Shown here: piece by piece, positions 9,242 to 57,986 of the stretch
How positions within the stretch are numbered: the stretch's first letter is position 1
How the letters are laid out: each line of letters starts with the position of its first letter
Assembly (NCBI GenBank): GCA_963575745.1
Contig: CAUYUJ010016059.1
Location: forward strand, 976,849 to 1,040,848
DNA length: 64,000 nt
Source of the DNA: Prorocentrum cordatum
Lineage: Eukaryota > Sar > Dinophyceae > Prorocentrales > Prorocentraceae
Reading direction: 5' to 3'
The notes under the pieces: model-generated
What the model was told of the DNA's origin: nothing
The model's database searches: none
What the model saw: only the letters and a program-made list of their open reading frames with translations
Program-made: the position numbers and the translations under genes

Positions 9242-10262
9242 TGCAGCGATCTGCGCAACTGCCGCCACGTTCGTGGGCTCCTGGGAAGCCCAGCGGAAGT
9301 ACGTCCCACGCGGACCACCTCGGGACCTTGCCGCCCCCTGGGGGGCTTGCGATCTGCGCAACTGTCGTCGCTTTCGTGGGCTCCTGGGAGGCCCAGCGGA
9401 GGTGCGTCCCACATGGACCACCTCGGGACCTCGCCGCCACTTGGGGGGCTTGCGATCTGCGCAACTGTCGCCACGTCCGTGGGCTCCTGGGAGGCCCAGC
9501 TGAGGTGCGTCCCACGCAGACCACCTCGGTACCTTGCCGCCCCGTGGGGGGCTTGCGATCTGCGCAACTGTCGCCACTTTCGTGGGCTTCTGGGAGGCAC
9601 AGCGGAGGTACGTCCCACGCGGACCACCTCGGGACCTCGCCTCCCCCTGGGGGGCTTGCGACCTGCGCAAGTGCCGCCACTTTCGTGGGCTCCTGGGAGG
9701 CCCAACGGCGGTACGTCCCACGCGGACCACCTCAGGACCTCGCCTCCCCCTGGGGGGCTTGCGATCTGCGCAACTGCCGCCACTTCTGTGGGCTCCTGGG
9801 AGGCCCAGCGGAGGTACGTCCTACGCGGACCACCTCGGGACCTCGCCGCCCCCTGGAGGGCTTGCGATCTGCGCAACTGTCGCCACTTTCGTGGGCTCCT
9901 GGGAGGGCCAGCGGAGGTACGTCCCACGCGGACCACCTCGGGACCTTGCCGCCCCTTCGAGGGCTTGCGATCTGCGCAACTGTCGCCACTTTCGTGGGCT
10001 TCAGGGAGGCCCAGCGGAGGTGCGTCCCACGCGGACCACCTCGGGACCTCGCCGCCCCCTGGGGGGCTTGCGATCTGCGCAACTGTCGCCACTTTCGTGG
10101 GCTCCCGGGAGGGCCAGCGGAGGTACGTCCCACGCGGACCACCTCGGGACCTCGCCGCCTCCTGGGGGGCTTGCGATCTGCGCAACTGTCGCCACTTTCA
10201 TGGGCTCCTGGGAGGCCCAGCGGAGGTACGACCCACGCGGACCACCTCGGGACCTTGCGGGC
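9242..10262 (+). repeat. Satellite A: about ten tandem units of exactly 103 bp
   Basis: The word GCTTGCGATCTGCGCAACTG (with substitutions) recurs at 9345, 9448, 9551, 9654, 9757, 9860, 9963, 10066 and 10169, always 103 bp apart. A diverged first unit starts near 9242. The unit has no stop codon in most frames, and 103 is not a multiple of 3, so long open frames arise on both strands and cycle through three different peptides. These frames should not be annotated as proteins. The unit is homologous to Satellite C at 36.3-38.3 kb. Confidence 0.95.
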
Positions 10263-11165
10263 GAAAATGCCAAATTGGGTTTCCGGGACGCATGCGGGCG
10301 GTCCCACTGGGAACTTCGGTGGAGCTCCCTATGGGGCCACGAAGCGCTGTGCTGGGTGCGTGAAAATTTCAAATTAGGTGGGTTTCGGGGACGCACGCAG
10401 GCGGTCCACTGGGGGTTTGGGTGGAACTCTCTATGGGGTCACGAAATGTTGTACTGGGTGGGTGAAAATGCGAAAGTTGGCTTCCGGGACGCGCGCGGGC
10501 GGTCCCACTGGGGGCTTCGGTGGAGCTTCCTATGGGGCCACGAAGCGCTGTACTGGGTGATGGAAAATGCCAAATTGGGCTTCGGAGACGCATGCGGGCG
10601 GTCCCACTGGGAGATTCGGTGGAGCTCCCTATGGGGCCGCGAAGCGCTGTACTGGGTGCGTGAAAATGCCAAATTGGGTTTCCGGGACGCACGCGGGCGG
10701 TCCCATTGCAGTGGGGGGCTTCGGTGGAGCTCCCTATGGGGCCACGAAGCGCTGTACTGGGTGATGGAAAATGCCAAATTGAGCTTCGGAGGCGCATGCG
10801 GGCGGTCCCACTGGGAGCTGGAGCTCCGTATTGGGCCACGGCACGCTGTACTGGGTGGGAGAAAATGCCAAAAAGGGTTTCCGGGACGCACGCGGGCGGT
10901 CCCACTGGGGGTTTTGGTGGAGCTTCCTATGGGGCCACGAAGCGTTGTACTGCGTGGGCGAAAATGCCAGATTGGGCTTCCGGGACGCATGCGGGCGGTC
11001 CCACTGCAGTGGGGGTTTGGGTGGAGCTCCCTATGGGGCCACGACGCGATGTACTGGGTGGGCGAAAATGCCAAACTGGGCTTCCGGGACGCACGCGGCC
11101 AGTCCCACTGGGGGCTTCGGTGGAGCTCCTTATGGGGCCACGAAGCGCTGTACTGGGTGGGTGAA
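10263..11165 (+). repeat. Satellite B: about nine tandem units of 99 bp
   Basis: GAAAATGCCAAATTGGGCTT starts units at 10263, 10362, 10464, 10563, 10662, 10767, 10861, 10960 and 11064. Spacing is 99 bp except where a short insert (TGCAGTGG region) lengthens a unit or a deletion shortens one. As 99 is 33 codons, one plus frame reads a 33-residue repeat (ENAKLGFRDARGRSHWG...). All three plus frames stay open, so selection for protein is not shown. It directly abuts Satellite A. Confidence 0.93.
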
Positions 11166-17317: not shown

Positions 17318-17322
17318 GAAGG
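17318..17322. other. Target site duplication of Element 1 (left), GAAGG
   Basis: GAAGG immediately outside the left LTR. The same pentamer follows the right LTR at 35354-35358. Confidence 0.9.
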
Positions 17323-17519
17323 TGTGTATGGGGTTAGAATACAAAGGTACAGAACCCCTGATCCGTTGGTAGAGGAAAGGAGGGAAAGATGGATATATTC
17401 TCCTCCTGCACGATCAAAGGTCTGATCGATCTAATCCAATACCTGAGCCCAAACGGCCAGGCGCAGGAGAGGTGAGGAAAAGGAGTATATATGAAGGTAT
17501 TATACGGGTTCTATTCACA
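17323..17519 (-). repeat. Element 1 3' LTR, 197 bp
   Basis: Starts (minus sense) TGTGAATAGAACCCGTATAA and ends ...CCCATACACA. Same length as the right LTR with about 13 substitutions. A TATATA-like AAGGAGTATATATGAAG word (17480-17496, plus) lies inside and could be a promoter element in either strand sense. Confidence 0.95.
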
Positions 17520-19439: not shown

Positions 19440-19628
19440 TCAGCAGATATCACACATTGTACCGTCACCTGTGACGCTTCCCAGAGACAGGAAACGATCG
19501 CAATTCCGACATCGCGCTATATCATGCTGGATCTTTTCAGGAGCCCCAGAAGCTGCAAGGTCCCCAAGAGATCCCCAGTGGGTGTAGCCACCGTCAGTGG
19601 AAGCAAGACCACGGCCGATTTGGTTCAT
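19440..19628 (-). pseudogene. Element 1 extension: CxxC...CxxC zinc motif
   Basis: Reads CRNCDRFLSLGSVTGDGTMC followed by DIC and a stop. This is a C-x2-C-x15-C-x2-C arrangement typical of a treble-clef or ribbon zinc site. Element 2 has the same motif at about 41150-41210 (CDNC-RFLPL...CGIC) with a stop inside the loop. It sits between blocks E and F1 of the extension. Confidence 0.6.
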
Positions 19629-20731
19629 TGCCTCACGATGGATCTCAGCGGTCGGACGGGAGGCGATCGATCGGCCGATCCCTCGATTTCGATATTAGAC
19701 AGTCTTTCCCCCGGTAATCCTGCGTACCCGGAGATGTCGGTGTCCGCAGTATCAATATCACCATGGTGTATGTTGTCCGTATGGATGCGGGTAGCCTCTG
19801 CCTGCAAGATGGCCTCGTTGTCGCCCACCTTGCGGTCAATCTTCTGTGTCTCGGCTATGATATGTACCATGGTCTCTTGGTCGGGAGCTGCGGAAGCAAC
19901 GCTACCTGGATCCCTGGGGATATCCTGCTTGGCGCCTGGGTCGTCCTGGTCAGGCGCAGCAGGCGTTCCCACCGGCTCCTTCCATACGGGGAAGCCTGAG
20001 TTGCCATGTGTCCTGATGCATTCTGCGAAGAAAGCACGCAACGTATTGAGGGCAGGATGGTTCTGATAGATCGCATCGTTAATGAACTGGTGCAGCTCCT
20101 TGATGCTGTCCAACAAAATGATTTGGTACACTTTGGAAATCCATTGAGAGATGCCCGTGGTCGATTCTTCGATAATCTCTGGGTCAAGGTAGTGTGCCAT
20201 CTTTTTGAAGAAACAGTCAGCACTGCAAATCGGTAAGTCGCGTGCCCATTTATGGGTATGATCGTAATCCATTTGGTCTGCTTCTGTTTTTGCACCGAAT
20301 TGTATCTCAAATCGCAGGCATGACTCGATCCTGTCCACCACAAGGTCGGCCCTACCAGTGTGTAGCTCAATAATTTGTTTTACCTTTACCATTGGAGAGT
20401 CCACCAGTAGTTCCGACGTCCAGCGGTATATGCGGTGGTCGCAAGATTGCAGAATCCACTTGGTATTGTCATCTGGGTCGTAGTCGGGGTGGTTGAGGAA
20501 ATCATCTGGCGGACCGATGATATTATCAAGGATGGACGAGCCAATGTCCTCATCAGCGTGAATCTCCGCCGATACATCCGCTTTCATGGTATCATTGGCT
20601 GCTCTTTCCTCATCTGTGAGTGGTATGGTCGATATGTCGACTATGACAGCGACCAGAGGGTCGTTGGATTGGCCTGCGTCGTGTCGGGATCCCTCGTCGT
20701 CTGCCGTGGGGTCTTCGGCAGGTGTCGCCAC
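19625..20731 (-). pseudogene. Element 1 extension block E (conserved, function unknown)
   Basis: A 368-residue open frame. The N-terminus is acidic and disordered. The middle (about residues 90-230) is conserved with Element 2 (41743-42306): a W-rich segment, YRWTSELLVDSP, a GAKTEADQMDYDHTHKW-type segment with the DHT and WxRDLP motifs, and HPAL-LR-FF. The C-terminal third contains VASAAPDQETMV, also in Element 2. No enzymatic motif is recognised. Comparison with Element 2 suggests it was part of one continuous polyprotein rather than a separate gene. Confidence 0.65.
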
Positions 20732-20851
20732 CAGCTCAGCTCGTCGGGATCGGGTGTCCGAGGAGCGGGGCGTCTGGTCGGTGTACGTGGGATACGTGGT
20801 TTGTAAATGCTCGGCATTCCAAGATATGGTAGATCACCTGTTTGTTTAAAT

Positions 20852-21667
20852 TTATTGATCTGACCGCTGCATGAAGATGGGCCCTGAAGTGCAATATTCA
20901 GGTGAATCGGGTTGATGTCGGCACCTACTGGCATAGCGAAGACAACGCCCCTGGGGGGCTTTTTTTTTGCCGCAATAACAAATGTTTACCCATCGTAAAC
21001 CGTAGTTCAGTATAGGTATGTGTACTGCAAAGAACTTCTCGAAGACTCCGAAGTGCATGACTGGTCCATAAATATGGCCCTTGTTCATGCGGACATTCGT
21101 GTTGTTGTCGCCCTTGGGGTAATGATTGTCAGAGTGGTAGCAATTAGTTGAGCCCAAATTTCCGACGATAATGAAGTCCCCCATGCGGGCATCGTTGAAG
21201 ATCGGCCGTCGATCCCAGTCTTTCTGTGTATGATTTGCTGTAATGGGTCGTAGGGCCGCTCTGCAATGTGATATAGCTAACAACCATTCTTTATCCTGTG
21301 TGTTGTGCCCACAACTGTTGACCAGATCACGAACAATGGCCTCATCCAATGCGTCGGCGTCAGCTGTGTGGCCAGCAGGGGTCGCCCCCAGCGGAGGGGC
21401 GATGGGTCGCTGGGCCGATGATGCTGAGGCGGACTGTGTCTGTGGCTGCTGAGCCGTGTCGTAGGCCTTGCCAGTTGGGGCAATCCCAGGGGGATCATCA
21501 ATTGTGTCTGTTCCGGGGGGAACAGCGCAAATCTCGCAATGGTTGTCTCTCAGCCAGCAGCGGGTAGACCCACGTAGTGCCTGTTTCTGGCCACATCTGC
21601 CTGCCATTCTCGCTGCGTGGTGCGAGACGGCGAATGGCGAGAACTGCAACGGCTGGAACCACATCAT
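20852..21667 (-). pseudogene. Element 1 extension block D (conserved, function unknown)
   Basis: The conserved core covers about the last 170 residues: DEAIVRDLV, QDKEWLLAISHCR, QKDWDRRPIFNDARMGDFII, HSDNHYPKGD, RMNKGHIYGPVMH and GVFEKFFAV. Element 2 (43283-44170) matches this at roughly two thirds identity by eye, the best conserved stretch of the extension. It is rich in His, Asp and Tyr, compatible with an enzyme or nucleic-acid-binding fold, but I recognise no family. The first 35 residues are probably out of the ancestral frame. Confidence 0.65.
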
Positions 21668-23420
21668 CAGTCATGATAGCGCCCTGCGCCCCCAGCCAAA
21701 ATCTGCATCCAGCCTTTGTGGCAATTCGCATGTCGATCACCAGCTCCACCTCGTTCTTGTAGTGCTTGAGCTTGTACGATTGGACCGAGGTGTGAGGGTT
21801 CTTGTTGGCGTTGTGCACATAGGTACTGGAACTGAAGAATGCCTCCGTGCGTTTTGATCATCTAAAATGTTTGTCTCTCTGGGAAGACGGATCAACATAG
21901 CCTGGAATAATTCCTGACTTGAGGATGCTGCGCCAGGCACGAAGTGTCGTGCCGCGGTGGAGGTACTTCACGTCTATCCATTGTAAACTCTCCCAGCCCA
22001 TATTCCATGGTTTGGAGAGTGGATTGACGCAACTGTGGCCTCCAACGCATCTGATAGCGATAACGCTGTTCCAATCGAAGCAGCTGGGATCGATCCCGTC
22101 GGGGACCGGCTTGGCATATATCTCGATCCGGTTCTTCTCCGGGTAAATGTGCTTCTGGAACGCACGAATGACAAAGATCGGGTAGTAATCAGTCCAACAC
22201 ATATATCCGTTTGGTTCACCGTCTTTGTGAAAGTGTGCCATGGCCGCCTCGGTGGACGGTCCGTTGTGAGGTCCACGACGCTCTTGAAATTTCCACTGAA
22301 CCATGCCCTGAAATGATTTCCACTTGCTGGGGATCTTCCAAGAGTGCTGCGCCGAGTTCGGCCATATGTTGACACGTCGATCAAGAAATTGGTCAATATG
22401 GAACTTTTCGTAGTGGATCTCATGACGTAGCATTGTCGTGATGTCTTTGCTCATCCAAACAGGATCTCCAAGCCACTCATAGATCAGCTCAGGTCCGTTG
22501 CGTACCTCGTCGTACGGCGGGAGAGATATCCATTTCCATTCTGGGAAACAACCAGACTGAACAATGTCAGGTCCGTGGGCGATCACGCAATCGTCGCATG
22601 TCAACTGGCTCGTCCAATCATCGTCCTGCAAGCAAGCCATGCCATTGATCGCTGACGTGCCCCGCAATGGAGGAGGTGCGTATGGATGATCATCCACGCG
22701 ACCTGCATGAAGCTTGTACTCGCGAGGAGTGCACGCAGTGTCGAGTGTCGGGATCTGGCTGGTGTCCTCATGGGAGGAACGCTCGCGACAGTCTTGCCAC
22801 GACAGTATGTATAGTGTATCTGATTGTTGATCAGGCGAAGGCCCGTCGTCAGCAGGAATTGCTTCCAGCTCCGCCGCATCCACATCAGCGCCCTCGTCGG
22901 GGAGCGGGACTGACGCGGCTGTCGGGAGCGGGTCTGGTGGCAATGGATCAGCAGGCGTGCTAATCGGAAGCGGACCAGGCGGCAATGGCTCTGGTAGCGG
23001 GATCGGCCGCGGGCCTGGCGGCAGTGGATCAGGCAGCGGGCCTGGCGGCAGTGGCTGCCTGTCCTCGGTCTGCTGGGCTGCCGCGGAGCCTTCGGGAGGC
23101 GCCGCGCCGAAGGCAGTAGTTGGAGCGTCGGCCGTGAGTCCCAAGGTGATACGATCCAAGGCATTCTGTGTGTAGAAACCTTTGCATGCCGCAATGGTAT
23201 CTGAGTTGTCAATGCGAGGGCCGGCACGATGGGAGCTCAACCTGTTGCGCTCTGCAATGAGGCGTGATTTCGTCGGGTCGCCATCTCCTGCCATGTCGTT
23301 AACCTGGAGCAGGAACTGTTCGTATACAACCCATGTAACTGCGTGTGCGTCCTTGGTGTCTTTCACGATTTTGTGGTGAAAGAGCTCTCTTTCTTCTCGT
23401 CTGATTCCCAAGATGCCCAC
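21498..23420 (-). pseudogene. Element 1 extension block C: Tpt1/KptA-like RNA 2'-phosphotransferase domain
   Basis: A 520-residue frame (23420-21858) continues in the same frame past one TGA to about 21570. After a Pro-rich linker (LPPGPLP repeats, 22930-23060) come the landmarks of NAD-dependent Tpt1/KptA enzymes in order: MLRH (22422-22433), IRCVGGHS (22032-22055), KYLHRGTTLRAW with GIIPG (about 21915-21965), and VIDMRIATKAGCRFWLGAQG then IMTDDVVP (about 21680-21770). In the family, the Arg-His pair of LRH, the Arg of the R-x-x-Q-G-H-S motif and a later Arg are catalytic and remove splice-junction 2'-phosphates. Gln is Gly here and the HGT motif is altered, so activity is uncertain. A related ADP-ribosyltransferase fold is the alternative. 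Confidence 0.6.
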
Positions 23421-25704
23421 GCCCCAGGGTAGTCGTTGATCAGCAGGAGAAGCTGATTGAACAACTCTTCGTATGCCTCACCATATGGATCGCTAGCAGG
23501 AATAGCTTTCGTCGGATCCGGTGCTGGTGGCTCTTTTGCGAGTCCAGGAATGGGCATGCAAGGATCGCTCGTTGCCAACGGCATCGATTTCGGCAACGTG
23601 CCGCTGGCGCACGAGGCCATCCAGGCACAATGAGCCATCTCCCCTGCAGTCTGAGTCATCGGCGTCGTGAGGCTGAGGTTCCTCTTCCATTCGTTGGTCG
23701 TCTTCTCACGAAATTGAAGAGCCTCCATAATCTCTGTGGCTTGTGTGTAGACCTGTGAATCCGTGACTGCTGTCAGGACAGGAGGTCTGAATGGATATGG
23801 CTGTGACGGTAGTGACTGGATCAATGCACAGAAATTGCGGTAGCATACTGCATCACAAAACTGAGTCGTGATCGTCGCCAGATTGTGATTATTCTGCTTT
23901 GAATGTCAAGCCGATTGCGTGACTCTGTCGTACGCATCAATCCAGTGGTCTGAGGGAAGAACTGTAATACCACGCATTTGCATTGTCCTGATCAGGTCGC
24001 CCGCGTGGTAGTCGAAAGTAGGGTGTACGCCCCATTGTGCCGCTATGCCTGGCCCCATGACGGTGGGGCAACGGAAGTACTGCATCACGTCGATGAAACG
24101 TGACAAGTCCACTTTCACATGTACTGGCATAAGCGTCGGGGCGCCGCCCTCGCAGTCCATCTTCATGAGCTCGCGCACGATGGTAGGAGCGCGGTCCTGA
24201 TAGCGACGGGTGTCCAACATGGTCTGGCCATGATTAGCGCACGCAATGTCGTTTGCGCTCCAGACCGCCAGTGTCTTTGTTTCACGTATGCAGGGAAGTC
24301 GTTAGCCCAATATTCCCATATGACCTCATTCAATTTACGCCACTCTTTTATGGAAGCATTGTCATTCATCAGCTACAGGCCTCTGGCCTTGCGGATCATG
24401 ATGATCACGTTGCGCTGTTCGAGTGTTGACTCAAACAGCGACGCCAGGATAGCTGTGATACGGTTCTCCTGTGCCTTGACAGGCTGCTCGCGGAATTGCA
24501 CCATATCGCAGCGGGTGTCGCCGCCAGCCTCTGGCAATAGAATGCAGTCCTGGCCAATCGCCGTGTCGTTCTGTTTGAACCATTCTTTGTCATTGCCAAA
24601 CGAGAATGCCCACATCATAATGTCGTCGCGGATAACGGTCGACAAGTGCTCGAGGGTGGCGCCGCCGATGTATTCTGCACGGTTGAGGCACGGCATGAAA
24701 AGAGGTACGAGGCCAACATTCGCCGCCCTGGCGAGGGCATCTCACTGCTGTGGGCTGTTGAGCTCGTCGATGCCGTGGCTTGGGTACTTCTTGTGCGCGG
24801 CGGCCTTGGTCCTGGGATGCATGATCCATGTAGAATCCGCATGCAAATTTGCCCATTTGTATGCGTGCCCTGACGGGCAAAAGGCATGGTGAAGGAGAAG
24901 TCCGAGGTCCTCCTGTATGATCCCATGCCATCCGCTGTCTGAAAGAAGAGCGGAAACCAATCGACCACCACAAAACGCGCTGTATTTTGCCTGTGCCAGC
25001 TCGAGCGGGTCAACGGCAGCACCAGGGGTAAGACCAGGATCCTCCATGGTAGGCGTTTCTCCGGCGAGCACAGATCCTTTCTCGTATGGATGCCAATGAT
25101 TCTCGTCATACTCCGGGCGGATTTTCCAGCCGTCGCGGTGATCGGACGGCGTTGCCACCGTCCTGGGGCTTGATCCGATGCCTCCACACCCTCCACGTGT
25201 AGTCTGCCAAGTGCTGAGCTTACGGCGGGATTTGCCTGTCTGGTGGATATCGGAGAAGGCCCTCATTTCGGTGACGAGGTGATCCTCGACAGTGTGGCCG
25301 AGGTGTCCCGCCGTGTCCGATGTCCTGGCCATGCCAGGTGGACGCACGGGTAGTTTGATCGCAGCGCGATCAAGTTTCGGAGCGTAGCTGGAGGTCGATA
25401 AACCATTGTTGTACACATCTTGCGGCGCACAAAGCCCGTCCTTGTACACCTGATTTGTATCCTGAACGCTGTCTTCAGAATATTGCCCAAGAAGTGCACT
25501 GCCCACTTTTGACCTGTCGTTGTGCATCATCATCCACTCTGCCTTCAACACCACCGTCGCAAGCTCCATTGGTGGACACTTGCGTGCGAATTTGGAATCA
25601 CAGCATGCAAGTGACCACGCAAGCCACGAACGTTTTCTTGGACAGAAGAGTTGCGCGTGAAGAGGCTGGAGATCATGCACATGGCCTTCATGAGTGACAT
25701 TCAC
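23363..25704 (-). pseudogene. Element 1 extension block B (conserved, function unknown)
   Basis: Collinear with the 586-residue frame of Element 2 but broken into four pieces here (25704-24742, 24696-24373, 24220-23906, 23824-23363). Shared segments: MARTSD-AGH-GH-EDHLVT, LDPLELAQAKYSAFCGGRLV, GHAYKWANL, HGIDELNSP, AGGDTRCDM, HVKVDLSRFIDVMQYFRCPT then VMGPG, and AVCYRNFCA-IQSLP. No catalytic motif is recognised. The strong conservation of a region with no known enzyme suggests a structural or host-factor-binding role. Confidence 0.65.
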
Positions 25705-26564
25705 GGTGTGGCCGTGGTCGCACTGTATTCATAGCGGGCGTCGCCGCCGACTCCTCCAACAGCTTTGCCGATGCAACTCGTCGCGTCGACGGGCGCGGAG
25801 CGGGTAACTTCGACAATGGTGGATTCGTCGGGCACTCGTAGATCATACTCTGCACTACGATCAAAGTGCAGATGATGTACGTAGGCGAAGCCATCCTCGG
25901 GGTCGCGAGGACGACCCGTCTGAGCGTGGTGCGTGAAGCCCACGCGGTCGTCGTCCTTGGCGTTCGGGTCGTAGTTGGCGTCGTGGGCGATGGCCCAGCC
26001 GTTGAGGTGGAGCGGCGATGCCTGGTCCATCTCGGGGATGGGGGGATCGGGGTTAGAACCGATCTCACTTGATTGCGTCTCGCGCACAGCGAGCAAGATG
26101 CTGGTAAGCTTCGTCGCTCTAGTGGTAAAACAGCTGCGGCACGATCGTACAATAAGTGTTCTAGACCTCCCTGTACCATGCGATGGCGAGGGAAGATGGC
26201 GAGGGTGTCTACCGTGCGGTGAGCGAGCCCTCGCTCGGGGTGTTCGCGAATCGGTAGCCGCCGCAAGAACACCTATATGGTACATGCATGCACATGCTCC
26301 CTCGTGGTTGGCTTGTCCAACACACAAACATCCGCATTCTGACCCTGTCTCGCCCCATTTTTCTTTGCTGGTAAGTAATATCTTACATATTTCCGGACAT
26401 CCATCCAGTTGTTGGAGGTTCTGCGACATGAGGTAAACCATCGGGCCTCTGAGGCCCTCGGAGTGGTTTCCTTGGATCCTTTGGAGCGCACTGTAATGGG
26501 GTAACAGGAAAGATGAGCGAGTGTTCGAATAGATCCCTCCAAAGGTCTGCTTTCTTTGGCTCAA
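25701..26564 (-). pseudogene. Element 1 extension block A with a Cys/His motif
   Basis: First block after RNase H. An N-terminal Cys/His cluster (CGCLCVGQANHEGACACMYH) may bind zinc. It is followed by an Arg/Ser-rich stretch, SCFTTRATKLTS, and a C-terminal region with PLHLNGWAIAHDA, DDRVGF, QTGRP and SAEYDLRVPDES, all echoed in Element 2 (48177-48965). The frame upstream joins the end of RNase H with no obvious ancestral stop, so pol reads into the extension. No family is recognised. Confidence 0.6.
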
Positions 26565-27447
26565 AATGTTTAGCCATCATATCTGCAATTTGTGTTTTTG
26601 TACCTACATACTTGAGCTCAGTATGTTCAAATTGGCATGTCTCACATATCCAATCCAAGTTAATACGATGAGTACGGTGAAGATGACGAAGTGAGGGTGC
26701 ACGTCCCTTTTGGGCAATCTTGATCACGGCCTGGTTATCCTCGAGGAAGATGAGATGCACTTTGGGAGAGCTGCTCTCCTGAGCGGGCTCTGGTTCCACG
26801 TGTAGCACAGTACCCTCATGGGATATCGTGCGCCTCTTTGGAGGCACAGGTGGCTCCATCTTCAGCGGTAGCTGTCTACGGCTAGGAGAAGATCCAAGTG
26901 TAGGGGATGCCTTGCGAGGCGATGGCTTGCGCCTTTTCTTTTTGGCGGCCAGCGTCGGACATATCGCCGCAGCGGCGCGTCTCAGGCAGCCCAGGCAAGT
27001 AGTCTTCTCTTTGCAAGTGTTGGCAACCTCCACCACGGCCTCCCAGAATGAGAGTAGTGGTAGTCCCTCCAGTCGTAACGCCGAGTCAAGAGCAAAGATC
27101 TCGGACTCTGTGGATGAGTGCGATGCGACCGTTTGTTTCTTGCACACGGCGTTGACGGGGAAGAACGTGTTGGGTCCAACAAGCGCCGCGAAGACGCCGG
27201 TAGTGGACTTGGGGGAGGTAATGCAATCGGCGAACGAGGCGTCAGTGAAGAGCATGATGGATAGCTTGTCTGAAAGATCGCCAATCCATCCATGTAAACA
27301 ATGGGTGCGCGTCGTTTTGATGTAGCATATCAGCCGATGAAGGCGTTTACCACATGTGGTATTCCATTTAGTAATCTCTCTGGCTAGCATACATACGGGA
27401 TGTAAAAGATCGAAACGACAACCGCGTGCCAGGTAGAGAATCTTCAT
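26383..27447 (-). pseudogene. Element 1 RNase H (copia type)
   Basis: A 354-residue frame. Copia RNase H signatures are present: LSIMLFTDASFADC with KSTTGVF, the HSSTESEIFALD segment, and LEDNQAVIKIAQKGRAPSLR then HLHRTH. It ends with VGTKTQIADMMAKHFEPKKAD, the usual end of copia pol. RNase H degrades the RNA of the RNA-DNA hybrid. An inserted Lys/Arg/Pro-rich stretch between the SSTESE and EDNQ parts contains CLGCLRR and is also present in Element 2. The frame then continues into block A. Confidence 0.85.
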
Positions 27448-28561
27448 CAGTACACTCGCCGCGTCCTGGCCGAGGATGCCCTCGTCGGAGTAGTCGGACT
27501 CGATAAAGGAGGCGTCCTCGATGCCAGGAGTCTCTGCGTCGGGTAGATCATAGTATGTGACTGTCGTTGATTGTGTCGTAGTGGAAGGTCTGTCGACCGA
27601 TCCAGCCGGGCTGGAAGATCGCGACCGTTGAGCGCGCTAGTGGGTCTCACGACCGACCCGGAGGAACTCGGCGATTTGGATCGCGAAGCCCTCGGTGAGT
27701 CAGACCGTTTACGACGTGGCCCTGGCCCATGGGTACGCTTGGAGGCGCACTCCAGGTAGCGCTCAATACATTGATCAGTAAAACCAAGCATGCCATGTCG
27801 TATTCCACGAACTTGTTTAGCTGTATGATATGCTTTATCATTGTGGGCAGGCAACATAGGTCGAATGGTAGACATTCTTTTGTCGAAGACGTTCTGCGGT
27901 ACGTCGTATGCCTGTTGTCCACAGCCAAGGTATTGAGAGTATGGAGTAGGCGGATCCAAATCAATGCCACTTCTTGCGGATATGATCCCAGCCGGCTTGT
28001 AGGTTGATGGCTGGTCCTGCTAGTTTGAAGTCGTCCACGTATACTGAAAGTATCAATCCCAGCTTGTTGTGTCTCCACACACATTCCCAGCCTGGGATGG
28101 GCTCAAATCCAACACTTTCAAGACACGTACGACACTTTCTTTCCCAAAAGACACCTGCGAGAGGGTGTCCGTATAGTGCCAATCGTCGTCGGCACACGGG
28201 ATTCCTGTATATACACCAAGATGCAGGTTGGCGCCACTTGGGTATGGCAATCCAAGATCGACTGGGTCGATTCGTCCATCTCCGTATAGCAGCGCCTGCG
28301 TGCATGCGCCAGGTGCATCGCTCTGCTCGCCCGCGTACTTGGGCACTAACTCGGTGGCGTCACAGAGTTTGGAGGCCTCAATATGCGACGCACTGGGCGC
28401 GGCGCTGGCAAATATGGCGGCCAAGCCAGTTTCATCTTTGCCGGAGGAAGTTCTTCATGTTTGACTGAAGATAGCTCAAAGATGTTGAAGAAGTGAACCT
28501 TCTTCCCAGTACGAATCGCCTGTGATTCAATCTCATCTTTCTCAGCAACAGTTTCTAACAT
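27447..28561 (-). pseudogene. Element 1 reverse transcriptase core (frameshifted, YVDD retained)
   Basis: The RT palm lies across three overlapping frames (28561-28346, 28424-28053, 28305-27961), continuing at 27959-27447. Recognisable parts are a KKVHFFN start, a fingers/palm region with QGNTGKDETG in Element 2 and its relic here, IFASAAPSASHIEASKLCDA, and LSVYVDDFKLAG, where YVDD carries the catalytic aspartates. The connection domain follows with YLGCGQQ and MLGFTDQCIERYLECASK. At least two frameshifts break the palm. YVDD is intact, unlike Element 2. Confidence 0.8.
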
Positions 28562-30142: not shown

Positions 30143-30911
30143 TCAATCCATTTGTTTGTGGACGATGAGCAGTACTAGTGTCATGTCTCCATCCCAGTTG
30201 GCGGCATGCCTTCTGAAGCTCTCCATAATTATCTGTATATATGTGCTTCACCTCATCGTTTGCGGCGATGAACTGCTGGAAGGATGTCTTCGAAGTAGCT
30301 GCGTCTCTATGTAATGCTGGGTGCGCCATGAAGATGCCAGCGTATCTGTCCAGTACGACGAGTGCGTACTTGTCACCGTGCTTGTCAGCGGCATCGTCTT
30401 TGGCCAAAACGATCTGGTCGGCAGTTAAAGCCTCCTCGAACTTCTTCGGGACGAAGGCCTCGTAGGCTGTGTCCTCGTCGGTGGCGGCTGCCGGTGGGTG
30501 TGGTTTGCGCTGTCGTCGGCACGGGACGTCCTGCGCCATAGTGCGAGAGCAAATCTCACAGTCGGGATGTTTTGGACTGTGGGTCATGTAATGCATAGGG
30601 TCAATCGGTTTTTTTCTGTCTGTTTGGAAGAACGCGATCACTATCATGGCGCACTTTGACGAGCGTCTCCATCGGCAGATCCTCGAGGGAGGTCGACGCG
30701 ATGTCGGTATCCGCTTGAGCTGTATCTGCAGGCCCCCCGCATGTGGGAGGATAACACTGTATCTGAGACGTAAGCGAGTCGGTGTGTGTATCCACGTTGG
30801 ACTCGGCATTATTTGTGTCGGGAGGTTATTCGACCGTGGCGGTCCGCGCTCCTCCTCCCTCACCGACATGTGGTCTCTTGGGACAGGTCCCCATGTGGGG
30901 CTGCAGCTCAT
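29589..30911 (-). pseudogene. Element 1 integrase
   Basis: A 440-residue frame. A zinc-binding N-terminal relic (HSPKHPDCEICSRTM) is followed by the catalytic core: Asp in ALTADQIVLAKDD, Asp in HIYTDNYGELQKACRQLGW, and Glu in TNGLIERVVK. The second Asp and the Glu are about 30 residues apart, shorter than the usual 35. WWKEAMQAFCCGHN and FGARIFWKCLDPE are standard copia integrase motifs downstream. The enzyme inserts the cDNA. Catalytic residues appear intact here. The first 90 residues overlap the protease frame and are likely out of frame. Confidence 0.85.
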
Positions 30912-32247
30912 CTGTAAGTGGTGACTGCTCTGTAGTCTTGCAACGCCGGCATATGTCGTTGCAGCGTGCGGATGAACGCTTGCGCTGACGACGTCTGGGT
31001 GCTGCTGGAGTGCACAGTCGTGGTGGTGGTATCGTCACCAAATCGTCGAGTCGTAGTTCTGGAACTCTGTTATAGACGGGAACCTCATACCATTGGCCCC
31101 CCGGATCCTGAAGCAGGTAGCCAAGTTCTGGATCCCAAAGCTGCCGAAAGCCATCAACTTCAATCAATTGTCCAACTGATAATAACGATGGGCAATCTGG
31201 CAAGGCGAGGGCTGAACTCTTCAAGCCCACTTCAGGTAGTTGTATGTCATAGTGCTCGTTGACAGTGCGATCACCACTGGCGTTTCCCAGAATATGCTCC
31301 TCGCGAATAGATATGCGATCAGATTCGGTCTGCGTCAGCTCGTTTTTATTCTGAATATGGTGCGCAGATCCACTGTCGAGAACCCAGGGGCGTGTCAACA
31401 CAGCGGTCGATCGTGGAGGGTCGACTTGCGAAGTCATTGTCTTCTTCTGGTGTGTCTCGGAGGACTTTATGGTAGAGTCGTCGGAATCTGGGATCGCAGT
31501 TGGTGTCTCCACCGGCCCCTTGTTGTGTCGGTAGTCATGTAGATCCTGACACCATAACTTTGCTTCCCGTTGACAACGTTGTAGGGCGCCTGCACCCTGC
31601 TTCCACCACCATTGTGGCAGCGGGTCTGGTACTTTGACGATATCGCCCTCGTTCGGCTTCTCCATCCACTTGTCCAGAGTGGACCTGCCAGAAACGATGT
31701 GCGGGCAGTATTCCACGGTATGTGTGTCGAAACGTATCCGACGCCGTGGTTTGGTTGATGCTGTCTTGGCCTTGTTGGCGGCCATGAGAGTCTTGTCGCG
31801 CATGACGTAACTGCGGTCGGAGTGGCGCGGGCGGCGATAATTGGCAGGAGAGCGTGCCCTGAACTTGGGAGAACCACGGGACGAACCGCGGCTCGTGGAA
31901 CGTCGGTCACGTCCGCTGTCGCTGCCGTACGATCTGTCACGGCCACGTGGGCTGCCACGCCCCCCGCCACGCCCGTCTCGCTTTCGAGAAGAGGATCGCG
32001 AATTTCTATCGTAACGACTTCTCGACTGACTGCGAGAGTCGGCAGACCTCCAGGAGGATGGGCGAGATCGGTCGCATTGGCGTCGGTTGTCACGTCTATT
32101 GTATGAGCCCCCCGCGCTGCGGGATCCCCCGCGTTGTGGAGAGCGTTGGCTCCCAGATCCGCGGGGCGGCGGTCGGCCGCGACTGTCGTGACTGGAGGTC
32201 CGTGGGCGACTGGGGCTGCACCAGGTGCCAGGTGAGCGTATTTGCAT
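30826..32247 (-). pseudogene. Element 1 Gag C-terminal RS domain and aspartic protease
   Basis: A 473-residue frame. Residues 1-140 are Arg/Ser/Asp/Gly-rich, continuing the nucleocapsid after the CCCH fingers. Conserved Trp-rich DPLPQWWWKQGA follows. The copia protease signature is WVLDSGSAHHI (Asp-Ser-Gly active site, about residue 293), then HYDIQLPEVGL and PSLLSVGQLIEVDGF. The C-terminus has a CNDICRRCK Cys cluster. The frame overlaps the Gag frame at the fingers, so one frameshift separates them. Confidence 0.8.
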
Positions 32248-33305
32248 TTGTCACCCTTAGGGCACTTGTTCTGCGCGAAGTCTCTGCGCTGCGCCATGTG
32301 TGGGAAGTTGCACTCGCCGCCTCTGGCGCAGGTGTTGCGCTTGGCGAACTCGAAGCAAAATGGCTTCGATGCTGGCTTCTTGGGATTCGCAGGGGCTGAT
32401 ACGCTGCGGCGAGAGTTGCCGCCAGCGGTCGGTGCTCTGGAAGATCTGCTGCTCCTCCAATCCCAAGAGAAGGTATGTAAAGCCTTGCAACGTTCACCAT
32501 TGCGACAGTTGCCTTTCTTCCAGGCAGCGCAGACATGCACCTGAGAACGAGTCTCATGCTCGTACCGTAACTTGTTTTGATTACTTTCCAGTTGTTTGAG
32601 CTCCAGTACGTCTAGAACGCGCTGTCGGAGCCAATCATAGGTACGATTCGGGCCGCTGATCTTCATGCGCTGGTATTCGTACACATCCTGTTTCATCCAG
32701 GCATGTCGGCGAATCTGCGTGCGAAACAGAGATTCCAAGATCTGTGGGTCGGGTGCCTCTCGGCAATCCAACAGTAAAGCGTCCCAATCAGTAATGAAAC
32801 GTTGCAAATCTTCATCTCTCATCCTCAGTTCTTTGAGGCGCTCGAAATCATGCAGGTCGTCATCAACCTCTGTCACTTTGTAGGACTGTAGGATGTGCCA
32901 GTATATATGGCGTCCTTTGAGCATGCGTCCTGCTTTGTGCTCTCTGGTCTCGATGAGCCTGATCTGGTAGCGCAAGTCGGAAAATAAGATGTCGCTGAGA
33001 GCGGTGGCGAGTTTGCAGTCGATGCTCTCAAAGTTTCCGCTGTCTTGTAAGTCTTCAAAGGTACACTCGGGCTGCCCGGCCACGCATAGGAAGGCATATG
33101 CTTTGGATGGTCGCCCTGAGGCGGCTCCAAAATCCTCCCGTACTTTTTGCTGCCACTCAAGCAGTTGCGTGATCTCAGGCAAGACGGGGACTCGGACGGT
33201 GTCTGACTCCTTGATCGGAGTAGTAGTGTTGACCGAAACCGCAGACAATGGTTGTGAGGGTATCGGTACACCGTCGGTAGTTGGTTCTGTGGGCACGGGA
33301 GACAC
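32230..33305 (-). pseudogene. Element 1 Gag capsid/nucleocapsid with CCCH zinc fingers
   Basis: The first 360 residues of the frame starting at 33305 are the true Gag. A capsid-like helical region contains ITQLLEWQQKVREDFGAASG, CTFEDLQDS, AGRMLKGRHIYWHILQSYKV and LFRTQIRRHAWMKQDVYEYQ. The fingers follow: CAAWKKGNCRNGERCKALH (C-x7-C-x5-C-x3-H), CFEFAKRNTCARGGECNFPH (C-x8-C-x5-C-x3-H), and a third, KCPKGDKCKYAH, whose first Cys is Arg. CCCH fingers replace the CCHC knuckle usual in copia Gag. Beyond about 32230 this frame is no longer the coding one. Confidence 0.8.
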
Positions 33306-33341: not shown

Positions 33342-35091
33342 TCATGGTGACGTGCGTCTTTGTTGTCCTGCAGAAGCGCGTGGTGCTTGAGCGGACGCTG
33401 CCGTCGGCCTGTGCAGGTCGGTTGCAGGCTGAAGGTGAAGTGTGGTGTCGTTGGTGTGGTCAATCAGCTGATTGGTCCAGCCCGTCACGTCCTCGTGTAT
33501 TTGGTCCACTTTTTGGCGTTTGTACTCATCAGTATCCCGAGAGCGTTGTGAATGCCGATCAAGTCGTTGCTCGTAGGCTCGGAGACGGGCGCTGTGCGCC
33601 TCCAACTCACTGTCCAGACGTGCGAGGTGCTCCTCGACACGTGCATGTTCAGCATCTCTCTCACGGATGACCTGGGAGAGCTCAGACTGCGTGGGGCCCG
33701 CCGCCTTCTCAACCTCCTGCAACCTGTCAGCGAGGCGGGCGAAATCGTAAACCGTGGGAGGAGAATCCAGCTGATCAGTCTGGGCTCGTCCGACGCGCAA
33801 CTCTGCCAGGGCGTCCTGTACACCAGGAAAACGCTGCTCGATTTCAGAGACCCGGTTAGCGAGTGGCTGCGCGACAGCGTTGGTCGCACCAAGCCTTTGA
33901 GTGATAACTCTCTCAGTATTTTGCAACATGCCGAACAGGTTCGACGAGTTGGTGTGTGACTCGGTGCGAAGCGTCGCGGTAGTGTGGTCCATGTGGGATC
34001 GAAGATCGTTGATCTGAGACTGAACATCGCCAAGGTCGGTGGCCTCGGCTGGAGGCGGTCGGTTGCGGAGCTGGTCGTGGATCTCGTCGTGGAGAATCCT
34101 GACTGCTGAAACGCCCGTGTCGCGTGCGATCACAAGCTGTTGCTCCATCTGCGCAAGGTAGTTGCGCAGGTTCTCGACCGTCGCCGATCGTTCACCTGAG
34201 TGTGACAACTCACGGTCAACCTGGCGCCGCAGCTCACCTAGGACGCGGCGATCTTCAGCGATCCTGGAATCGATGATCACTAAGGCGCCGTCGAGATCTT
34301 GGCGTAGAGCAGCAGTGTTGGCAGCGTTCGTCTGGACGCTCTGCATCAGTCCAGAGTACTGCCTGGACACGAAGGTTTCAACCTGGTCTCTCAGCTCAGC
34401 TATTTCACCTGCAGCGGACGTTGCCGCCAGACGGTCATCTGAGATGGAGAGGTGGGGAGCGTCGGCTTCCCCCTGCACCCTTCCGCGAGGAGTGCATGGC
34501 CTCTGCGAGGCAGCACGCGGGCGTGACCTTTTCTCGTCGTATGGGCCTGTGGCCCCGCGACGGTTGCGCAAGGACGAGCTGCGGCTAGGGCCGCGTGTGT
34601 GCGTGGTGTCTGATGAGATGATACCTGGGGGTACTGCGTGTGCGGCCGTGCCGTCACTGGTCTACTGAGTTCCTCGAAGGTGGCAACGTGCTCCGCTACA
34701 GGAACGGTCGCAGGGCTGGTCATGCCAGTACCTGTGTTCCATCGGCGGTTAGCGCGAAAGCGCCCTGGGGTATCAGGACCAGCGGGGCTCGCGCCCGACG
34801 CAGTTGGGATTGCTGCCGACGGAGGAGGAGATAGAGGATCGAAGGTAGGCGTGTGGAATTCTCTACTGCCTGCTCCTACTCCTTCTCCTGTCCCTCCGCG
34901 GGCGGCGTGGCGGTGAAGTTCAGCAGCTAGCCGCGCCTCGGGTCCGTCGGAGCTGGGGGGGGGGGGCCTGGGACACCTGCACGGTCCACGCTAAGGCTCT
35001 CCAACTCATCACCGAGCCGTCGCGCCGTCGGAGGGCTCGGACGCGAGGCCCCGATGGACCCCTTACGGCGCATGCGCCGCTGGGGTTCCAT
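33342..35091 (-). pseudogene. Element 1 Gag N-terminal coiled-coil region
   Basis: The start is placed at the ATG at 35091-35089 (MEPQRRMRRKGSIGASRPSP), because Element 2 has the matching MDPPRRLRRKGSV at 57734. A run of 12 G (plus strand, 34955-34966) follows and the frame changes there. The main frame (34571-33342, 409 residues) is Gln/Glu/Arg/Leu-rich with long coiled-coil heptads (LRDQVETFVSRQYSGLMQSV, LAQMEQQLVIARDTGVS). It probably drives Gag multimerisation. Three frames are needed to cover it. Confidence 0.7.
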
Positions 35092-35136
35092 CGAGGCCGC
35101 GTGCGAGATCGCGACGCGGGGTTCGATGAACTGTGA

Positions 35137-35156
35137 GCTTTAAAGGGCTGATAACC
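35137..35156 (-). promoter_or_regulatory. Candidate primer-binding site of Element 1
   Basis: Directly downstream (minus) of the 5' LTR the sequence is GGTTATCAGCCCTTTAAAGC. Element 2 has GGCTATCAGCCCTTAAAGCT at the same place. The position and TATCAG core recall tRNA-primed copia sites, but the matching tRNA cannot be named by eye. Confidence 0.6.
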
Positions 35157-35353
35157 TGTGTATGGGGTGAAAGTACAAAGGTACAGAACCCCTGATCCGC
35201 TGGTAGAGGAAAGGAGGGAAAGATGGATATCTTTTCCTCCTGCACGATCAAAGGTCTGATCGATTTAATTCAATACCTGAGCCCACACGGCCAGGCGCAA
35301 GAGAGGTGAGGATAAGGAGTATATATGAGGGTAGTATACGGGTTCTATTCACA
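35157..35353 (-). repeat. Element 1 5' LTR, 197 bp
   Basis: Starts TGTGAATAGAACCCGTATAC (minus) and ends ...CCCATACACA. It aligns without gaps to 17323-17519. Confidence 0.95.
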
Positions 35354-35358
35354 GAAGG
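35354..35358. other. Target site duplication of Element 1 (right), GAAGG
   Basis: GAAGG directly outside the 5' LTR, identical to 17318-17322. Confidence 0.9.
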
Positions 35359-38295: not shown

Positions 38296-38355
38296 CGAAG
38301 AGAGGAGGACGGAAGAGAGGAGGAGGCGGGAAGAGGACGCGACCACAACAGTCCT

Positions 38356-39061: not shown

Positions 39062-39247
39062 TGTGTAAGGGGTTAGAATACAAGGTACAAAACCCCTGAT
39101 CCGTAGGTAGAAGAAAGAACGAAAAATAGGGATCTGTTCCTCCTGTGCGACCAGCGTCCTGGTCTCTTCCAGTACCTGAGCCGGTAACGCAGGCAACAAG
39201 GCGAGTGAGGAGGAGAGTTGGGGGAATGAGACGGATTCCTTTTCACG
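39062..39247 (-). repeat. Element 2 3' LTR, about 186 bp
   Basis: Aligns with 57799-57986 through CTGATCCGTAGGTAGA and TGTGCGACCAGCGTCCTGG. The outer bases are CGTGAAAAGG where the right LTR has TGTGAAAGG, so the terminal TG is mutated to CG. Confidence 0.9.
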
Positions 39248-43282: not shown

Positions 43283-44325
43283 TTAAGGAAGCGCGCGAGA
43301 CTGGGCGCAATCGGCGATCAGGGAGTTGCAGGACGACGGGCCCTTCATAGCAAAATCCATATAGTCACAACGAATTGTGTCTGTGCGAATTGGCAAGCCG
43401 TAGACGACGCCTTTGAGGGGCAGATGCTTGTCGCAGTACCAGATACTTACCCAGCGCAACCCGCAGTGCAGCATGGGTACTTGTACGGCGAACCACTTCT
43501 CGAAGACGCCATGATGTATTATTGGTCCGTAAATATGCCCCTTGCTCATGCGAACTTTCTGCTGATGATCGCCGTTGGGGTAGTGGTTGTCGTAGTGGTG
43601 GCACTTGACCTTGCCCCAATCTTTCACGATAATGAAATCGCCGACGCGGGCGTCCGTGAAGATGGGACGACGGTTCCAATCTTTCTGCTTCAGCTCTGCT
43701 GCGATGGGCCTTGGCTTCTCCCTGCAACACGCCATCGCGATGAGCCAATCCTTGTCCTGCTGGTTATATTTGGTGCTGTCATATGTTTCGACTAAAGCAC
43801 GGGCGATGGCCTCGTCGTTGGACGTATCGGGTGCGGGAGAGGCTTCTGCCGAAGAAACAGATGCTGTTGGCTCTGCATAGCGGCCAGCTGGGTTTGCCCC
43901 CGGCATTGGAGCGCGGGGCTGCTGTGCCGAAGATGCAGAGGCAGGCCCATGAGCAGGAGGTGACGCCACTGGGAAAGCCTTCGCAGCATGCGTTGCCGCC
44001 GGCGCTGATTGGTGCGTGCCAGAGAAGGATGCCGGAGCTAGTGTGTCCGCAGGGGCAGGCATACCATCGGCCCCTAAGCCCCGGGTGACTTGCTCCTGTC
44101 GTGATTGATGACAAGTGTGCGGCGGCGATCCAAAGACGGGCACCCCCAGCGTGGCGTGTTCAAGGGCCACACCTGCTTGCCGCAGTCGCGGTCGTCTTTG
44201 GAACGACGAACGGCCACGATTGCTGCGGGCGGAACCTTATCTTCCGTCATGATGCCGCCTTGAGCACCGAGCCAAAAACTGCAACCGGCCTGTGTGGCGA
44301 TGTACATATCTATCACGATGTCCAC
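43283..44325 (-). pseudogene. Element 2 extension block D and end of the Tpt1-like domain
   Basis: The frame 44325-44074 begins VIDMYIATQAGCSFWLGAQG then GIMTEDKVPP, the C-terminal part of the Tpt1/KptA-like domain. The frame 44170-43283 continues into block D: DKDWLIAMACCREKPRPI, QKDWNRRPIFTDARVGDFII, YDNHYPNGD, RMSKGHIYGPIIHHGVFEKW. Block D is nearly collinear with Element 1 20852-21400. An Ala/Pro-rich linker separates the two. Confidence 0.65.
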
Positions 44326-44434
44326 CTCATTCTTCCAGCGCTTGAACTTGCAAGGCAGGACACATGTATGAGGGTTGGGCTGCGCACCTTTGATGTAGTT
44401 GCTCGAGCTGTGAAAGGCCTCGGTGCACGGTTCC

Positions 44435-46026
44435 TCATATTGTTTCTTGTCCCGCTAGTTGTTGTCTCTGTAGCCGGGAATGATCCCCTTTGCCAGGATG
44501 TTGCTCCAGGCCCGAAACGTCGTGCTGTGGTGGGTGTACTTCACGTCGGTCCACTGTAAGCTCTCCCAGCCCATGTTCCACGGCTGTGAGCGCACGTTGA
44601 CCGAACTGCGACTTCCCACACAACGGATGGCGAGGACGCTGCTCCAATCGAAACAGCTGGGATCGCTCCCGGCGGGTAAGGGCTTGACGAAGACCTCGGT
44701 CCTGTTCTTCTGCGGATCGATGTGCTTCTGCAAAGCACGCAGGATGAAGATCGTGTAGTATCGGTCCAAGAGTTCCACCCCTCCCCGTCCTTTTCGAAGT
44801 GCGCCTTGGCAACGTCGTTGGACGGGCCATTGTTGCGGTCGCCGCGGTTACGGAATTTCCATTCCACCATCTCTTCGAAAGAGCACCAAGTGCTGGAGTA
44901 TTTCCACCGAGCAATCCCCGAACGCCTACGCCAAATATTGATACGCCGATCAGCGAACTGATTGAAGCTGAAATTTCGTCTTTGCATGGCGTGGCGTAGC
45001 ATGGTCGCGATGCCCTTGCTCATGAACTTGTCGTCACCAAGATACTCAGTCAAAATGAGCTCGGGGCCATGCGCCGCGTCGTTGTAGGCTGGAAGGGATA
45101 TCCACTTGTATTGAGGGAAGCAGCCAGAATGATCAAGGTCCAGTGCGTGGGTGAGCAGGAGATCGTCGTAGTTCATCTGAGCTGCCCAAGCCTGGTCAGT
45201 GGTGCTCTCGGTGCCTCCTGGTGCATGTGTGCCCCGAAGAGGAGGGGGCACGTGGTAATGCTCGCCACGTCTGGTTGCTGGGCACGGAGCTTGAACTCAC
45301 GAGGAGCGCGCGTTCGAACGCGGGGAATCGACCCGGCCCCTCGTGGCAAGAGAGCTCGCAGCACTCGGTCCAGGCAAGCGCGCGCACGTTATCCACGCGC
45401 TGAACAGACGTAGGGACGTCGTCAGCGGGAGTTGCCTCCGGGACCGTGGCCATGACCACATCCGGCGGAGGATGGGCAGGCGGCCCCGCGACGGAGCGCG
45501 TGACCGGCATGGCCTTCGGTGGTGGACCCGGGGGCAGTGGCGGCTTGACGGGCGTAGGTTTGGGCTTTGGTAAGGGCGCCGCTTTGCGCGCGGGCTGAGC
45601 TGCAGGTGGTGCTGCAGCGGGCCTCGCGGCCGGCGTAGGCTCGGAAGTCTCGGAGGTCGGCGCCTCGAGGGGCGGAGCCGGCGGGACTCTTGGAGAGTCG
45701 CCCTGGGGAACGCCGGGTGGAGGTGGCGGGGCCGCGATGCGGTCAAGCGCGGCCACTGCGTGAAAGGCCCTGCACTTCTGGATGATCTCTGCGTTGTCGA
45801 TCCGAAGCCCATCGCGGTGAGAGGCGAGCAACGCGCGCTCTTGGATGATGCGGCTACTGTTGGCCGTAGTCCGCTCCGCCTTTGCCTCGATCTTGTCCAC
45901 GAACTGCACGTGGGCCACCCGGGTCAGAGCGTGCACCTCGATGGGATGGAAATGGGGCTCTGACTTGAGCGTTGCCCTGTCATCGGAATCGTAGCTGTTC
46001 CAAATGCCCGGATACGTGTCGATCAA
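44435..46026 (-). pseudogene. Element 2 extension block C: Tpt1/KptA-like domain (degraded)
   Basis: Frames 46026-45196 (276 residues, Ala/Pro-rich), 45251-44541 and 44778-44455. Tpt1-like landmarks: MLRHAMQRR (LRH at 44991-44999), IRCVGSRS (44605-44628; His lost relative to the GHS of Element 1) and KYTHHSTTFRAW with GIIPGYRDNN, then an in-frame TAG before the block resumes at 44325. Trp-rich PWNMGWESLQW and DPSCFDWSSV are shared with Element 1. The motif order supports the same fold, but this copy is more decayed. Confidence 0.6.
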
Positions 46027-57798: not shown

Positions 57799-57986
57799 TG
57801 CACATGAGGTTAGAGTACACAGGTGCAGAACACCTGATCCGTAGGTAGAGGAAGGAGAGAAATATATGGATATTTTCCTCCTGTGCGACCAGCGTCCTGG
57901 GGTCTCGCCCAGTACCTGAGCCGATAAGGCAGGCAAAAGGGCGAGTGAGGAATGGAGTTGAGCGTGCAAAACGGGATCCTTTCACA
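57799..57986 (-). repeat. Element 2 5' LTR, 188 bp
   Basis: Starts TGTGAAAGGATCCCGTTTTG (minus) and ends ...CTCATGTGCA. Pairs with 39062-39247. Confidence 0.92.

Follow-up and report, generated by a model that had tools for sequence, protein, structure and literature searches.

A giant copia-type LTR retrotransposon in the dinoflagellate Prorocentrum cordatum carries, fused into its coding region after RNase H, a domain of the Tpt1/KptA (RNA 2'-phosphotransferase) family. We found it in a stretch of 64,000 nucleotides of contig CAUYUJ010016059.1 (the window, to whose first letter all coordinates refer unless a locus is named), where a sequence-only reading had proposed such a fusion. That proposal is supported by a Pfam match, by decoy comparisons, by all ten of the open relatives scanned elsewhere in the genome, by conserved catalytic positions and by purifying selection. 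The stretch is probably a decayed copy of a domain that forms a stable part of a high-copy element and is predicted to be an NAD-dependent enzyme with RNA phosphates as its substrate.

The element (element 1, E1) spans 18 kb and lies on the minus strand, as do all its features given below. It is bounded by 197-bp LTRs with TG...CA ends, the 5' LTR at 35157..35353 and the 3' LTR at 17323..17519, which differ at 13 of 197 positions (93% identity) and are flanked by a perfect 5-bp target site duplication (TSD; GAAGG at 17318-17322 and again at 35354-35358). A gag-side ORF (33305-31470) contains CCCH zinc fingers (32232..32285; PF18345, E = 8.9e-9; PF00642, E = 2e-7) and a Torus-like match. It is followed by an integrase core (rve, 30159..30386; PF00665, E = 3.5e-5, 24.4 bits, below the cut-off of 32.6), by a broken reverse transcriptase (RT) recognised by direct reading of its motif SVYVDDFK (28024..28047), and by an RNase H stretch (26560..27252), also read directly (LFTDASFAD ... 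LEDNQAVIKI ... ADMM), whose motifs we take to be of copia type. Neither the RT pieces nor the RNase H piece of E1 matched a Pfam family. Beyond RNase H come a conserved extension with no known domain (22557..25446), the Tpt1-like domain (21501..22556), a conserved C-terminal extension (19484..21538, NRRPIFND..GDFI) and the 3' LTR. E1 thus has both LTRs with TG..CA ends and a TSD, and an integrase upstream of RT and RNase H, as a copia-type element should. No tRNA was found by Rfam in window positions 34800-35400, which include the stretch beside the E1 5' LTR, or by ARAGORN in the whole window. The window also holds two related tandem arrays (9243-11165 and 36254-38296) with units of ~101-103 bp in opposite orientation, ~72-75% identical.

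We took the E1 domain as the minus-strand translation of 22556-21501 with its single TGA (21860-21858) read through, which gives a domain of ~340 residues including inserts. The four landmarks named in the sequence-only reading, LRH, IR-x4-HS, an HGT-like motif with GIIPG and a C-terminal block, were all present by direct reading where it had placed them. The first lies in SKDITTMLRH (22422..22451), which holds the Ser, Lys, Arg and His of the RNA-lobe site as judged by direct reading, alignment with kin and the published description (PMC6333775). The others are IRCVGGHS (22032..22055), aligned with both kin and KptA; LHRGTT (21945..21962), the HGT site, in which the E1 copy has Arg instead of the His of its kin (HHGT); SILKSGIIPG (21900..21929); and the block VIDM...FWLGAQGAIMTDDVVP (21654..21740; in full VIDMRIATKAGCRFWLGAQGAIMTDDVVP). 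Two further motifs carry tetrad residues: KNRIEI (22119..22136), with K-x-R and the third tetrad Arg by direct reading and by the kin and KptA alignments, and RTEAFFSSS (21825..21851), with the fourth tetrad Arg and EAF in place of HVH.

In CthTpt1, the available part of the published work gives Arg18-His19-Arg68-Arg121 as the essential tetrad, with Lys66, Ser10 and Lys11 nearby and an HGT that binds NAD (PMC6333775). The Ser-Lys pair of E1 stands eight and seven residues ahead of the LRH Arg, the same as in CthTpt1. The series of catalytic landmarks proposed from the letters stands with one correction: the third catalytic Arg is not the Arg of IR-x4-HS but that of K-x-R, which the sequence-only reading did not list, which is present in E1, which corresponds to Lys66 and Arg68 in CthTpt1 (PMC6333775), and which is invariant in all 12 KptAs aligned. 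The fourth is the R of RTEAF when the E1 type is aligned to a second Tpt1-bearing type described below (hhalign E = 0.06). In the hhalign alignment to prokaryotic KptA, KptA YVH pairs with the later STYVH of E1, which leaves the fourth Arg unmatched in the E1 type. The E1 type does not keep HVH and VGxRHG (NAD phosphate-cage arginines), with EAF and a KFKHYKN stretch instead; neither belongs to the essential tetrad. It resembles Tpt1/KptA in having S-K...LRH, K-x-R, IR..GHS, HGT, an R before the next strand and a G..F...G...T block in the same order, and differs in its size of ~340 residues with inserts, in lacking HVH and VGxRHG and in being fused into an LTR-element polyprotein.

PF01885 (PTS_2-RNA, Tpt1/KptA) was the sole Pfam family matched by the E1 domain up to E = 10, and the match (E = 2.9e-7) was above the cut-off, at 31.1 versus 26 bits. 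It aligned residues 166-297 to positions 73-176 of the 177-position profile; the score was just 14.9 bits when the part beyond the stop was removed. In a profile-profile comparison (hhalign), the E1-type family (38 rows) scored 53.0 (E = 3.8e-7) against 12 prokaryotic KptA sequences drawn from public records, compared with at most 31.6 for decoys with columns shuffled within blocks (283 run of 300) and 12.3 for the reversed family. The same comparison with 28 open natural copies of the E1 type gave E = 2.5e-9 and a probability of 96%. When 1,225 ORFs of the window and the two read domains were searched with a KptA HMM, ranks 1-6 were all E1 or E2 domain sequences (E = 5.1e-5, 0.011, 0.014, 0.19, 0.25 and 1.3; E2 being a second element of the window), rank 7 was another frame at the E1 place and rank 8 the N-terminal part of E2 (E = 4.3). 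The likeness thus goes beyond chance, as had been claimed.

Other searches were less productive. At E <= 10, PF01885 was matched by 4 of 30 rows of the family alignment and by 3 of 10 short database fragments, the latter all below the cut-off (13.9-15.5 bits). Five proteins had no match in NCBIfam, which may not cover KptA. PDB sequences yielded nothing by phmmer or profile search, two scans of viral contigs gave no confirmed relative, and a phage search and a search for longer homologous proteins had no result. Two AlphaFold2 models were poor (pLDDT 31 and 48.5; the alignment for the second consisted of family rows alone). Of 46 Foldseek matches to the second, mouse and human Tpt1 ranked 1 and 2 and Aeropyrum Tpt1 ranked 9 and 14, with a best E of 0.56, which is not significant.

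Element 2, on the same strand, contains the same domain in a broken state. Its N-terminal part (44763..45128) is 54% identical to E1, and its C-terminal part (44200..44760), in another frame, matches PF01885 below the cut-off (E = 1.7e-3, 18.9 bits); a frameshift near 44760 divides the two, and the second is interrupted by a TAG at 44457-44455. The motifs SKGIATMLRH (45020-44991), IRCVGSRS (44628-44605), THHSTT (44535-44518) and VIDMYIATQAG...GGIMT (44316-44245) lie where the sequence-only reading had seen the same series, in a more decayed form. Of the catalytic positions, KNR is kept, HST occupies the HGT site and Cys replaces the fourth tetrad Arg. The extension past the domain is partly present (43942-43328 and 42369-41325), and E2 and E1 have a series of pieces in common. 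An LTR piece at 39071..39220 (3') is 84.3% identical over 153 columns to another at 57808..57960 (5').

The domain is repeated many times in the host genome. A search of 4.13 Gb in 21,875 contigs gave 115 scored E1-type places, one of them E1 itself, among 1,633 first-look candidates; many were listed as stop-free, with open frames of up to 1,997 aa. From the 115 rows we sampled 34 loci for dN/dS, 14 as the best-scoring and 20 picked as stop-free. A full-length open domain was present in 28 of the 34, which is no estimate of the open fraction because the picking of stop-free places makes the sample lean to intact copies; L059, which is among the 28, begins six residues in, past a TAA. Across these open copies, the R before EAF and the HG are kept in 28/28, HGT in 25/28 and IR in 27/28, and among the 27 copies with printed rows RH is kept in all and the Arg of K-x-R in 25. 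Median dN/dS was 0.165 over 378 pairs (range 0.09-0.64), and all ten open copies scanned exceeded the PF01885 cut-off (28.7-36.8 bits).

The open copy L089, of which 9.9 kb were read, shows the surroundings of an unbroken domain. Its 1,997-aa frame is colinear with E1 from 25446 to 19484. The extension ahead of the domain is largely colinear, with aligned pieces 72-74% identical, and the extension past it is 61% identical; neither matches a Pfam family in L089. The Tpt1-like domain lies ~1,000 residues into this frame, after RNase H, and as a separate piece scores 22.5 bits, below the PF01885 cut-off. Upstream, in other frames, are RNase H motifs and an RT (RVT_2, E = 2.1e-6, 28.0 bits, below the cut-off of 31.6). 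Protein searches with 3 and 35 matching rows gave mostly fragments for the E1 domain, from a EukProt set that bears the label Pyramimonas sp. (34 of the 35 rows, P0001, P0002 and P0004-P0035, some above 80% identity), with one partial protein labelled Prorocentrum cordatum. The Pyramimonas label may reflect the host, contamination or transfer.

The same genome contains a second Tpt1 domain, closer to the canonical form. Searching with PF01885 returned 150 scored places among 2,877 candidates, all above the cut-off. The first seven (L016-L022) have the appearance of Tpt1 genes of the host, or of what is left of such genes; two of them, L020 and L021, have identical 316-aa Tpt1-like ORFs at different genome places. 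The other 143 score 71-92 bits and have open frames of up to 2,943 aa, plus two rows at 4,482, one of which (C19443) adjoins a stretch open in six frames. In the copy on contig C1962, the first ORF combines a zinc knuckle (18.6 bits, below the cut-off of 20.8), a Tpt1 domain (E = 1.1e-24) and a RING finger (PF17123, E = 1.3e-8), and the next ORF contains RVT_2 (E = 1.6e-9). The first ORF of the copy on contig C310 has the same three domains. The Tpt1 domains of these two copies, between zinc knuckle and RING finger, score 87.9 and 85.3 bits. The RING finger (PF17123, 1.3e-8) shares its ORF with the canonical Tpt1 at L024:7105-9999 (plus) and L026:1289-4288 (minus), and could possibly be a ubiquitin ligase carried by a retrotransposon.

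The C310 element has 99-bp LTRs with two mismatches and the TSD ATTAT; in the 37 kb examined around the C1962 element there was no convincing LTR pair, and matches of at least 80 bp looked like repeat arrays. Two RVT_2 frames lie in the C310 element (L032:838-4128 and L032:5158-6666), which could mean a nested insertion or a second RT. Its 5' LTR is followed by TGGTAGCGGGAGC, which presumably resembles the complement of the initiator-tRNA 3' end. The sequence beside this LTR (L027, around contig C310:74990-75017) ends in ...GCTCCCGCTACCA, which we take to resemble a tRNA 3' end.

Conservation in the second type was assessed on 20 regions of the 150 rows and four earlier loci; since L028 equals L044, the 24 rows represent 23 distinct copies, and L028 was dropped from dN/dS. 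All 24 rows keep RH, RASQGHS, HGT and the GRSHIHF Arg, as well as Ser-Lys...Arg-His; HIH is kept in 23/24, and K-x-R takes the form KQR. Median dN/dS was 0.19 (216 of 253 pairs with dS > 0.05), and 0.22 in the flank. By hhalign the two domain types match each other at E = 0.06-0.07 and prokaryotic KptA at 2.5e-9 (E1 type) and 3e-17 (second type). Both are therefore closer to KptA than to each other, which allows two captures without demonstrating them. In a tree that leaves the E1 type out, the second type falls outside the prokaryotic clade, beside a host-like ORF, with 91/86 support and on a long branch. A wider reading, which we put forward tentatively and hold to be somewhat doubtful, is that copia-type elements of this one genome acquired Tpt1 twice, in one case after RNase H and in the other on the gag side, next to a RING finger. 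They would then have multiplied it into hundreds of copies or more and maintain it under selection. Such retroelements would bring along an NAD-dependent enzyme for RNA repair or capping and use it to protect their RNA or their tRNA primer from the RNases of the host.

We propose the following scheme for catalysis, substrate and packaging. Tpt1 enzymes are reported to remove 2'-PO4 (PMC6333775) and, in vitro, to ADP-ribosylate 5'-phosphate ends (PMC8883491). The Tpt1-like domain would be translated within the polyprotein and enter the particle with it; its placement in polyproteins suggests such co-packaging. It would bind NAD+ and, through the Arg-His-Arg-Arg site, act on an RNA phosphate. 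This would be a 5'-phosphate or else a 2'-PO4 that cleavage, ligation or host RNases have left on the genomic RNA or the tRNA primer. Priming and copying of the RNA would then still be possible. The most likely identity is an NAD-dependent enzyme whose substrates are RNA phosphates inside the particle of the element, and a role at the tRNA primer is possible. The E1 and E2 copies are broken (E1 has a stop inside the domain and Arg for the His of HGT; E2 has a frameshift) and are not expected to be active. The elements nevertheless seem to have made an RNA-repair enzyme their own, because further copies hold an unbroken, selectively conserved version.

The alternative that survives best keeps the KptA fold and shifts its job: the domain would cap 5'-phosphate ends of RNA or DNA by ADP-ribosylation, or would ADP-ribosylate a protein of the host, perhaps so that sensing by the host is blocked, with 2'-phosphate removal lost. 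Tpt1 enzymes can modify 5'-phosphate ends in vitro (PMC8883491), and the E1 type has changed both HVH and the arginine-cage stretch. However, it preserves the tetrad positions by which the 3'-PO4/2'-PO4 junction is recognised, and the second type retains both its tetrad residues and HIH (23/24 rows), and we regard a shifted job as unlikely, if worth keeping in view. Considerably less probable is a catalytically dead module whose winged-helix-like RNA lobe is retained for packaging or assembly. Some catalytic residues are missing in E1 and E2 and the NAD-side loops are divergent, but the open copies keep two features of the NAD lobe, HGT (25/28) and the R before EAF (28/28), at a dN/dS of 0.165.

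That the motifs match by chance, in a polyprotein under little constraint, a view for which one might cite the modest HMM E-values of E1 alone, the mostly unmatched short fragments and the poor structure models, is rejected by the low decoy scores, by the ten of ten natural copies above the Pfam cut-off and by the ordered motifs at conserved spacing. Equally improbable, and rejected for the family, is the view that a Tpt1 gene or pseudogene of the host simply neighbours one insertion or was passively carried by it: host-like Tpt1 ORFs do exist in the genome (L016-L022), but there are 115 scored E1-type places and 143 further PF01885 places, of which 23 copies were inspected, the domain lies within long open frames, and E1 and L089 are colinear in element sequence on both sides of it.

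A Tpt1/KptA-family enzyme built into a copia-type element thus remains the preferred reading, and it can be set beside several known systems. KptA inside the polyproteins of two RNA viruses is already known (PMC9503650). The E1 domain is likewise part of a polyprotein, but those are positive-strand RNA viruses, and the available part of that report makes no mention of a retrotransposon or retroelement. Literature searches over titles and abstract openings found, among the matches listed, no earlier report of Tpt1 in a retrotransposon. The Gypsy-AlkB giants of Phalaenopsis are also giant LTR elements (25 kb) with an added RNA-modifying enzyme and many copies, but belong to Ty3/Gypsy and carry an m6A demethylase; as far as the available text of that study goes, all 15 extra domains from its screen of 121 angiosperms were confined to Gypsy elements, with none in Copia (PMC9289625). 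Host-type enzymes have been captured into retrotransposon ORFs in Symbiodinium and K. nitens too, dinoflagellates included; these carry a DNA methyltransferase and are LINE, DIRS and Gypsy elements, the Gypsy case being under purifying selection with Ka/Ks < 0.2 (PMC5890265, available part). Compared with Ty1/copia, E1 shares the order of integrase, RT and RNase H, the LTRs and the 5-bp TSD, and differs in its length of 18 kb and in the long extra frame after RNase H (1,997 aa in L089). The role of Tpt1 in lineages without a fungal-type tRNA ligase is described as an open question (PMC6333775), and its retention by a selfish element points to some natural RNA substrate or some conflict, either of which is open to experiment. 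NAD-dependent RNA chemistry would then join the enzymes taken up by LTR elements, here those of the copia type.
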